The notes under the pieces: model-generated
What the model saw: only the letters and a program-made list of their open reading frames with translations
What the model was told of the DNA's origin: nothing
Databases searched by the model: none
Translations under genes and position numbers: made by a program
Shown here: in pieces, positions 29,463 through 32,471 of the stretch
Layout: every line of letters starts with the position of its first letter
Numbering within the stretch: position 1 is the first letter of the stretch
Assembly: GCA_028066245.1 (NCBI GenBank)
Contig: JALCBR010000015.1
Location: forward strand, 1 to 37,286
Length of the DNA stretch: 37,286 nucleotides
Reading direction: 5' to 3'
DNA from: Pirellulales bacterium
GTDB taxonomy: Bacteria; Planctomycetota; Planctomycetia; Pirellulales; S012-138

Positions 29463-31817
29463 CTAACTGGACGGCTTGAAGATCACCACACTCAACGGCG
29501 GCAGCGTGATGCTCATACTGGCGGGGCGACCGTGGTGCGGTTTCCCAATGGCCTCCGCGCCGCCGCTATTTCCCAGGTTGCTGCCGCCATATAGGCCAGC
29601 ATCAGAGTTGAAGACTTCCTGATACCAACCGGCCCTCGGCAGGCCGAGTTGGTAATCTTCCCGGGGTACAGGCGTCAGGTTCAAGCAAACGGCCAAGGCT
29701 TCCTGGCCATCGCCTGTCTGCCGCAGATAGGTGAGCGTGCTGTCTTCGGACGAGTTGCAATCGATCCACTCAAACCCACTGTCGTCAAGATCGTGCTTAT
29801 GCAAGGCGGGCTCCGTGACCAGCAGCCGGTTCAAATCGGCCACCATCTGCTGCAAGCCCTGGTGCGAGTCCCATTGCAACAAGTGCCAGTCAAGCGATTG
29901 ATCGTAGTTCCACTCGTCCCATTGGCCGAACTCGCCTCCCTGAAAGAGCAGCTTCTTGCCGGGATGCGTCCACATGTAAGACAGCAGCAACCGCAAATTG
30001 GCGAATTGCTGCCATCTGTCGCCGGGCATTTTGGACAGCAATGATGCCTTGCCGTGGACGACCTCGTCATGTGAGAACGGAAGCACGAAGTTCTCATGGA
30101 AGGCGTAGATCAAACTGAACGTCAGCTGATTGTGATGAAACTTGCGATGCACGGGCTCATGCTGGAAATATTCCAGGGTGTCGTTCATCCAACCCATATT
30201 CCACTTGAGCGAAAACCCCAGTCCGCCCAAATATGTGGGGCGAGAAACGCCCGGCCACGCGGTTGATTCCTCGGCAATGGTCAGCACGCCTGGGTGGCGA
30301 GTATGAAGCTGCTCATTAAACATCTTGAGGAACTCGATAGCCGCCAGGTTTTCTCTTCCGCCGAGTTCATTGGGGACCCAGTCGCCGTCCTCTCGGCTGT
30401 AATCCAGGTACAGCATACTGGCCACCGCGTCCACGCGCAGACCGTCGATGTGATATTGATCGATCCAGAATAGAGCGTTGGCGATGAGAAAGTTTCGCAC
30501 CTCATGCCGGCTGTAGTTGAAGATCAGCGTGCCCCAATCTTTGTGTTCCGCCTGGCGCGGGTCAGCATGCTCATAGAGACACGTTCCGTCAAACTGGGCC
30601 AGCCCGTGGGCATCGCGGGGAAAGTGGGCCGGGGTCCAATCCAGAATCACGCCAATCCCATGTTGATGGCAATGATCCACCAGATACTTGAAATCTTCCG
30701 GACTGCCGTGCCGTGAGGTAGGGGCAAAGTACCCTACCGTCTGGTAGCCCCAACTTCCTGAGAACGGGTGCTCGCAAACCGGCAAAAGCTCGATATGTGT
30801 GAAACGCAGCCGGGTGACATACTCGACAAGCTGATGGGCAAGCTCGCGATAGGAAAGCCATTGACCGTGCTCGTCACGTCGCCAGCTACCCAAATGCACT
30901 TCATACACGCTGATTGGCTTATCAAGCGCTTGCCGGGCTTCGCGCTCCGCCAGCCAGTATTCATCGTTCCAAGTGTACTGGTTCAAGTCCGCGACCACGG
31001 ACGCCGTTCGCGGCGGCAGTTCGGCGGCAAAACCATACGGGTCGCTCTTCTCCAGGTTTTCACCAACAGATGTGCGAAGTGAGAACTTGTACAGCGCACC
31101 CGCGTCCAACCCCGGCACAAACAACTCCCAAAATCCGGAAGGGATGTGCTTTCGCAGTGGATGCCTGCGCCGATCCCAGCCGTTGAAGTCTCCAATGACG
31201 CTGACCGATTCGGCGTTGGGCGCCCAGGTGGCGAAATTCACACCGTGTACGCCGTCAATCTCGCGGACGTGGGCTCCCAACCGCAGATAGGACTCCCAAT
31301 GTTGCCCTTCACCGAGCAGGTGCAGATCGAAGTCGGTGAGGAGAGGCGGGAAAGCGTAGGGGTCGTGGTGTTCCCTGCGATGCCCGTTAGCGTCTTCTGA
31401 GACAAGGCGATATCGCGGCGTGGAGTTGCCTCTGACTGTTCGTCCAAGCTTGTCTGGCGTGGAGTTGGACATTTGTTGGCCACTTAGGTGGACTGATTCG
31501 AAAACACCTGCAGGATGAATCCGTCGCATCGGCAACATTTGCACACGTGTGCACTCGCCAAGCGAATCCCTATTGCGGTTTGCTCGGTCAACCGTTTCCC
31601 AAAGCTCGCGCCCGGTGGGGTTTTTGTTTGACACGGCATCCACATCGATCCGTTCACTGGTCAGCCACATTCGGGTGGCAGTTGGATCATACGCGGTGAC
31701 CGAGAGGGCGACTTGACCTTTCACGGAAACTGGATGTGGGCCCAAGATCGCCGCGGGATTCTCATGTCGTCCCTGCACCAAGCGTGTGAGATCGGCCAGG
31801 TTGGCATGTGTCCGCAT
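29463..31817 (-). CDS. glgB: 1,4-alpha-glucan branching enzyme
   Basis: GlgB forms alpha-1,6 branches in glycogen. Using ATG 31817 the protein has 784 residues. After an N1 domain comes a CBM48 domain (about 185-290) with [20 protein letters not shown], then the GH13 barrel: the nucleophile Asp463 in [15 protein letters not shown], the acid/base Glu516 in [10 protein letters not shown], and Asp584 in [12 protein letters not shown]. The C-terminal beta domain is complete. It is somewhat longer than usual (about 730) because of inserts in the N1 domain (about 58-94 and 112-142). A GTG at 31871 would add 18 residues. It follows the RNase H-fold gene by about 55-110 bases on the same strand. Confidence 0.96.
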
Positions 31818-31925
31818 TGTCGCGATGTCCGGCTCATTGTGATCGATGCTCGCTACCTCGTCTACCGCCACGCACGGTCAAGCAAGCGAGCTGTACTCCT
31901 GCGGTTGCCAATAGCACGCAGCGTC

Positions 31926-32471
31926 TTATTCGCAGACCAGCCGGCGTTGGCGAGACTTTCCGGCGGCGGCAACATTCCCAATCCAATGTCCGGCCGTTTT
32001 GACTGCGCGACGCCACAACGGCAGGCGGCGGTTGGACTCAGCTTGCCGCAGAGGTTGGTGTTCTTGGTGAGTGTTGCGACGGACGTGACGAATGGCCGCC
32101 GGCGTTCGGCACTCGATCCCGTGGATAGTGGCCGCCCGGTCAAGTCGCTTCCACAAGTCCGCGTTCTTGACCGGCGTCATGCGTCCGTACGACTCCCACA
32201 TCCAACCTTGCGACCGCCATTGCTGTAGCCCGTACGTCAGCCCACGATAGATGTACCGGCTTCGCGTGACCAAGGCGATTTTTGCCGGGCGGTCCAGTGC
32301 TTCAAGGCCACGGACAATGGCCAGCAACTGCAGGCGTTCCCCGCGGATCTCGGGCTCGATCTCATCAGCGTCGATGGCTTGCCGGCCGTCAACGGATCGC
32401 AACACAAAGCGCCAGGCGCCCTGGTCGTCGTCCGTTTCCGACCACAAAACGTAGTCGTAGCGGGTAGACAC
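31926..32471 (-). CDS. RNase HI-like protein lacking most catalytic acids
   Basis: A 181-residue protein clearly related to RNase HI: GERLQLLAIVRGLEAL (44-59) corresponds to the family NRMEL helix, VTRSRYIYRGL (68-78) to the TDSQY strand, and GWMWESYGRMTPVKNADLWKRLD, in pieces GWMWESYGRM and TPVKNADLWKRLD (89-111), to the basic handle and the KPVKN-DLW segment. Of the four metal-binding acids of E. coli RNase HI (Asp10, Glu48, Asp70, Asp134) only the Glu (Glu45) is kept. The Asp70 position is Arg70, the Asp10 position is Trp or Ser, and the Asp134 region is unrecognisable and Arg/His/Gln-rich. It therefore should not cut RNA:DNA hybrids by the usual mechanism. The start is GTG 32471. It probably shares a transcript with glgB. 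Confidence 0.8.
   Translation of the reverse strand: MSTRYDYVLWSETDDDQGAWRFVLRSVDGRQAIDADEIEPEIRGERLQLLAIVRGLEALDRPAKIALVTRSRYIYRGLTYGLQQWRSQGWMWESYGRMTPVKNADLWKRLDRAATIHGIECRTPAAIRHVRRNTHQEHQPLRQAESNRRLPLWRRAVKTAGHWIGNVAAAGKSRQRRLVCE

Follow-up and report, generated by a model that had tools for sequence, protein, structure and literature searches.

An RNase HI-like gene next to glgB

The locus described here raises the question of what an RNase HI-like protein is doing directly upstream of glgB, the gene for the 1,4-alpha-glucan branching enzyme, in a bacterium of the order Pirellulales. The window, by which we mean the whole stretch of 37,286 nucleotides that was analyzed, carries on its minus strand (31926..32471) an open reading frame that starts with GTG and encodes a protein of 181 amino acids. 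A preliminary description had assigned this protein the RNase HI fold, and the assignment was borne out. Pfam RNase_H matched residues 41–120 with 35.9 bits (cut-off 25.8), and RNase H models were the only matches in Pfam and NCBIfam. With the NCBIfam RNase HI equivalog (NF001236) the protein scored 66.7 bits, below the cut-off of 160, compared with 197.8 bits for the normal RNase HI of the same genome (C105:17768-18196; 148.7 bits with Pfam). Because the genome holds this normal copy, the window gene is a second, divergent RNase HI gene. An AlphaFold2 model of the protein, made with 18 sequences, had a mean pLDDT of 81, with values of 94–97 in the blocks spanning residues 11–120. The strands and helices of the model are in RNase H order and its closest PDB matches were RNases H1/HI, the best being 3h08_B (Z 16.1, 116 residues, 1.8 Å); the modeled protein has the RNase H fold. 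On the basis of pLDDT and conserved columns, the RNase H-fold core was assigned to residues 1–122 (32106..32471, minus strand). No N-terminal hybrid-binding domain (dsRHbd) was found, as the core runs from residue 7 and Pfam at E<=1 gave RNase_H alone.

The nuclease site is lost throughout the family

Residues were compared in an alignment of 61 members of this pseudo-RNase HI family, 17 normal RNase HI proteins (L112, L114, and L117 being of unproven Pirellulales origin and L111 a repeat of the L080 protein), and E. coli RNase HI. The 61 comprised the window copy, 45 further copies from the order, and 15 of the 17 named copies; L102 (truncated), L105 (identical in sequence to L064), and the copies of genus g3 (L092/L216, L214, and L215, too divergent) were left out. 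Active type 1 RNase HI has the catalytic set D10/E48/D70/D134, and the window protein does not: the corresponding residues are Glu12 (32436..32438), Gln48 (32328..32330), and Arg70 (32262..32264), all on the minus strand, and none for Asp134, where the letter beneath the position belongs to an unalignable tail. The preliminary description had three of the four catalytic acids missing, which is the right count with the wrong residues, as D-E-D-D reads E, Q, R, none. Its Trp or Ser at the Asp10 position was a register slip, because the structural alignment is offset by about +2 at the N-terminus; sequence and structural alignment both place Glu12 there. Similarly, the helix said to retain the conserved Glu has Gln48 (GERLQLL versus NNRMELM), and Glu45 aligns with Asn45 of the E. 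coli protein. Arg at the Asp70 position was found as described, as were the PVKN-x-DLW segment and the loss of the last Asp region, where the Asp134 helix is absent and a basic tail stands instead.

Across the 61 family members, position 10 was Glu in 32 and Asp in 5, and position 48 was Glu in 45, Ala in 7, Gln in 4, Asp in 3, and Ser in 2. Position 70 was Pro in 23, Ser in 8, Gly in 6, Arg in 5, and Asp in 3, with other residues in the remainder, so that Arg70 is no conserved replacement. The three proteins with Asp70 carry Arg, Ser, or Gln at position 10, and homologues with an intact site were not found among the 61, none of which combined D10, E48, and D70.

A handle without its charge and a variable basic tail

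The handle is present in the family and its basic charge is lost: the mean net charge was −1.0 (range −5 to 5) compared with +4.7 (3 to 6) for the 17 normal RNase HI proteins, and the median core pI was 6.1 compared with 9.1. The basic protrusion of E. coli RNase HI takes part in substrate binding (PMC1950709). In the window model the handle consists of a helix (72–87) followed by predicted strands 91–94 and 97–100 that form a hairpin. This rebuilt hairpin, residues 91–100 (32172..32201, minus strand), was delimited by the model strands and by conservation of Trp92 and Glu93, which occur in 98% and 95% of the 61 family members, respectively, and in none of the 17 normal proteins. Further family-specific residues include G44, L47, G81, and R86, with Trp81 of normal RNase HI lost in the family. 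The aromatic W-x-W-E hairpin of the model could be a binding face, or it could simply repack the space left by Trp81.

Thr43 and Asn44 of the phosphate pocket and Cys13 and Asn16 of the turn, all present in 17/17 normal RNase HI proteins, are Arg43, Gly44, a gap, and Asp in the window protein, respectively. Arg residues are common at three positions of the family: R46 (58/61), R72 (39/61), and R76 (40/61). The Asp134 helix is replaced by a basic, poorly conserved tail, residues 123–181 (31929..32105, minus strand), assigned from low pLDDT and charge; beyond residue ∼130 the mean pLDDT was 48–56 per block. The net charge of the tail is +10 in the window protein and averages +4.1 over the family, where many tails are rich in Arg. 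By the pattern used, 16 of the 61 proteins (among them L034, L037, L039, L044, L045, L047, L054, and L059) share a C-terminal motif (..GT-LLP-PWLE) past a variable linker; the window copy does not have it.

The preliminary description favored a nucleic-acid-binding pseudoenzyme, for example one whose target would be the glgB mRNA or RNA/DNA hybrids and which would thereby control the operon. The retained RNase H fold, the three common Arg residues, and the positive tail are consistent with such a protein; however, the phosphate pocket, the turn residues, Trp81, and the basic handle are gone, the core pI has fallen to the extent given above, and the tails are poorly conserved, with dN/dS values of 0.22–0.56 in the pairs of relatives described below. 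We consider nucleic acid binding improbable.

The family is seen only in Pirellulales

A protein search matched 57/57 Pirellulales genomes with the two paralogues mixed, and relatives were recovered by an alignment-based search of contigs, a single-protein query of the contigs having given none. With a family profile, built from the same 46 rows that it then scored as positive, one clear copy per genome (at least 156 bits) was found in 46 of the 57, and the next best match (134) was a normal RNase HI. Of the other genomes, the three of genus g3 carry a low-scoring, degenerate copy ahead of glgB, G029 has a fragment of the gene at a contig edge, the four of family f8 (G011, G028, G042, and G050) have no family gene by profile and keep glgB, and the assemblies of G033, G037, and G056 contain neither the family gene nor a full-scoring glgB. 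The gene is kept in nearly all sampled families of the order, and conservation in relatives, left as a check by the preliminary description, extends across it; the named matches fall within Pirellulales and include Adhaeretor mobilis and Mariniblastus. Among 294 genomes of the phylum, none outside the order exceeded normal RNase HI scores, a threshold that a very diverged copy could escape. When 124 rows of RNase HI were placed in a tree, calculated from few columns, a single branch (SH-aLRT 100) set the 61 members apart from the rest, and this branch joins beside normal Pirellulales RNase HI. Judged by these sequence comparisons, the pseudo-RNase HI is a separate family seen only in Pirellulales. 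As the tree was rooted at its midpoint, we infer that the gene was duplicated close to the origin of the order.

Other RNases H of the order were also recorded. RNase HII/HIII (PF01351) was detected in 1/57 Pirellulales genomes, as a partial match at a contig edge in G006, and in 14/14 control genomes. The single planctomycete in Table 2 of PMC1950709 is classed with the organisms whose only RNase H is RNase HI. In two genomes of family f11 (G014 and G030; loci L050 and L055), whose fragmented assemblies may have gaps, the dead RNase HI was the only copy found, with no normal RNase HI and no RNase HII. Two others (L090 and L091; G053:C151 and G008:C39) encode, beside the normal and dead copies, an extra protein of RNase HI type whose motifs look intact and whose C-terminal region is rich in Cys.

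The gene is tied to the main glgB

In the window, glgB (29463..31871, minus strand) follows the pseudoenzyme gene after a gap of 54 bases (31872..31925, minus strand). The encoded GlgB has the GlgB_N, CBM_48, Alpha-amylase, and Alpha-amylase_C domains and matched TIGR01515 with 934.1 bits. The position directly upstream of glgB had been noted in the preliminary description, and the tie proved far stronger than could be seen there. The branching enzyme gene is the next gene downstream, on the same strand, in 45/46 fetched loci of the order, the exception (L055) ending 42 bases past the gene at a contig end, and likewise in 15/17 named loci (L093–L109), with both exceptions at contig ends. Outside the order the family gene was found within ∼1.5 kb of glgB in 0/28 planctomycete loci. 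These came from a phylum-wide sampling that gave glgB matches in 54/149 genomes; 30 loci were fetched, and the two that proved to be in the order both carry the family gene. The gap to glgB, estimated in 39 loci, ranged from a slight overlap to ∼700 bases with a median of ∼90, and because it often exceeds 100 bases, co-transcription is uncertain.

In a tree of 70 GlgB proteins (omitting frames of <400 residues, L033 and L042 or others, as well as L105, L092, and L213), the nine without a family gene fall in two clades: six rows are a second copy of GlgB, and three belong to family f8. Upstream of several second-copy genes is a gene that resembles maltokinase or malQ, as assigned from sequence. 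In the f8 loci L203 and L205 a peptidase C26-like gene stands directly before glgB, an arrangement that looks like the usual neighborhood minus the family gene. A link to the N1 domain of GlgB was considered and rejected: the GlgBs of L068, L081, L093, and L097 have a short N-terminus and still have the gene.

Neighboring bacterial genes may differ in pathway, and a function unrelated to glycogen, with only a common promoter or an old neighborhood joining the gene to glgB, would agree with the varying gaps and with the recurrence nearby of the C26-like and DJ-1/PfpI-like genes (18 loci each, assigned from sequence). Against this explanation, the upstream genes change between loci while glgB stays, and no other neighbor approaches 45/46. 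We regard it as unlikely.

The core is under purifying selection

Ten pairs of relatives were used for dN/dS analysis, one of which (L068–L071) was saturated for both the core and glgB. In the nine unsaturated pairs the core gave values of 0.07–0.17 compared with 0.07–0.11 for glgB, and eight residues were invariant across 46 rows. The g3 copies (L214, L215, and L216) have lost the handle and show relaxed constraint, their closest pair having a dN of 0.39, a dS of 0.87, and a dN/dS of ∼0.45, a state that is possibly a step toward gene loss. With values low for the core and high in g3 alone, we conclude that constraint is real almost everywhere and has loosened in one genus. That the protein is a pseudoenzyme rather than a decaying gene, as first proposed, is supported by this selection together with the order-wide presence and the missing catalytic set. 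Gene decay, or an upstream reading frame that serves only to couple glgB translation or transcription, would fit the degenerate g3 copies and the four f8 genomes but is contradicted outside g3 by the core values and the invariant residues, and we give it very little credence. Equally remote is retained cleavage of RNA/DNA hybrids through a displaced or altered active site, where the frequent Glu at positions 10 and 48 is outweighed by the rarity of Asp70, the absent Asp134 helix, the lost handle charge, and Gln48 and Arg70 in the window protein.

A possible role in glycogen branching

The comparisons above show a Pirellulales-specific RNase HI paralogue whose nuclease site and handle charge have gone, whose predicted core fold has stayed, and whose gene stands first in a pair with the main glgB. 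The role that we prefer for it, and hold tentatively at a little under an even chance, is that of an accessory protein without catalysis of its own in glycogen branching. Its retention beside glgB across the order suggests that a new job was taken on. The core and rebuilt handle may act in an accessory or regulatory capacity, and the most likely route would be contact with GlgB or its glucan, by which branching activity might be tuned or placed. The tie to branching is genomic and evolutionary, and the contact with GlgB or glucan is predicted from it. Against an accessory role stand the four genomes of family f8, where glgB is present and the gene is not, the degenerate, handle-less copy of genus g3 (3 genomes), and the uncertain co-transcription with glgB. 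As f8 lives without the gene, the protein would be an aid, not a necessity. A more specific version, which we consider rather doubtful, is that the handle, which once held RNA/DNA hybrids, has been remodeled to hold GlgB or alpha-glucan, with W85, W90, W92, and F/Y95 beside E93. The protein would then be an RNase H-fold subunit dedicated to branching and fixed in one order.

Comparison with known systems

Type 1 RNase HI (E. coli RnhA, NF001236, PF00075) shares with the family a fold of ∼120 residues, the core helices, and the W85, W90, W104, and H114 positions, whereas the family lacks the catalytic set, the phosphate-pocket residues, the basic handle, and the C-terminal helix. The open-access literature that was searched contained no description of an RNase HI pseudoenzyme paired with glgB or of an inactive planctomycete RNase H; passages in PMC3985635 mention RNase H-like proteins that have lost metal-binding residues, none of them of the Pirellulales kind. 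The nearest bacterial precedent is an RNase HI of B. subtilis that lacks activity (PMC1950709) and belongs to Group A of the Firmicutes, where the basic protrusion is wholly absent. Both are RNase HI relatives without RNase H activity (here predicted) in genomes with other RNases H; unlike Group A, the Pirellulales family keeps a handle, altered in charge, and is tied to glgB. With no earlier description found and the nearest precedent lacking the handle, what appears new is the unexpected gene with which this RNase HI pseudoenzyme is paired. In the genomes sampled, the family is a pseudoenzyme found across the order, held under strong constraint, and linked to an enzyme of carbohydrate storage; it is a clean example of an enzyme fold apparently reused, with natural loss (f8) and natural decay (g3) available for comparison. 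It also calls for caution, as a Pirellulales protein that matches RNase H models may be something other than an RNase H. An RNase H fold without catalysis is familiar from the reverse-transcriptase connection domain and a domain of Prp8, both parts of nucleic-acid machines. The Pirellulales family has such a fold in common with them, but as a separate, small protein encoded in a glycogen locus.
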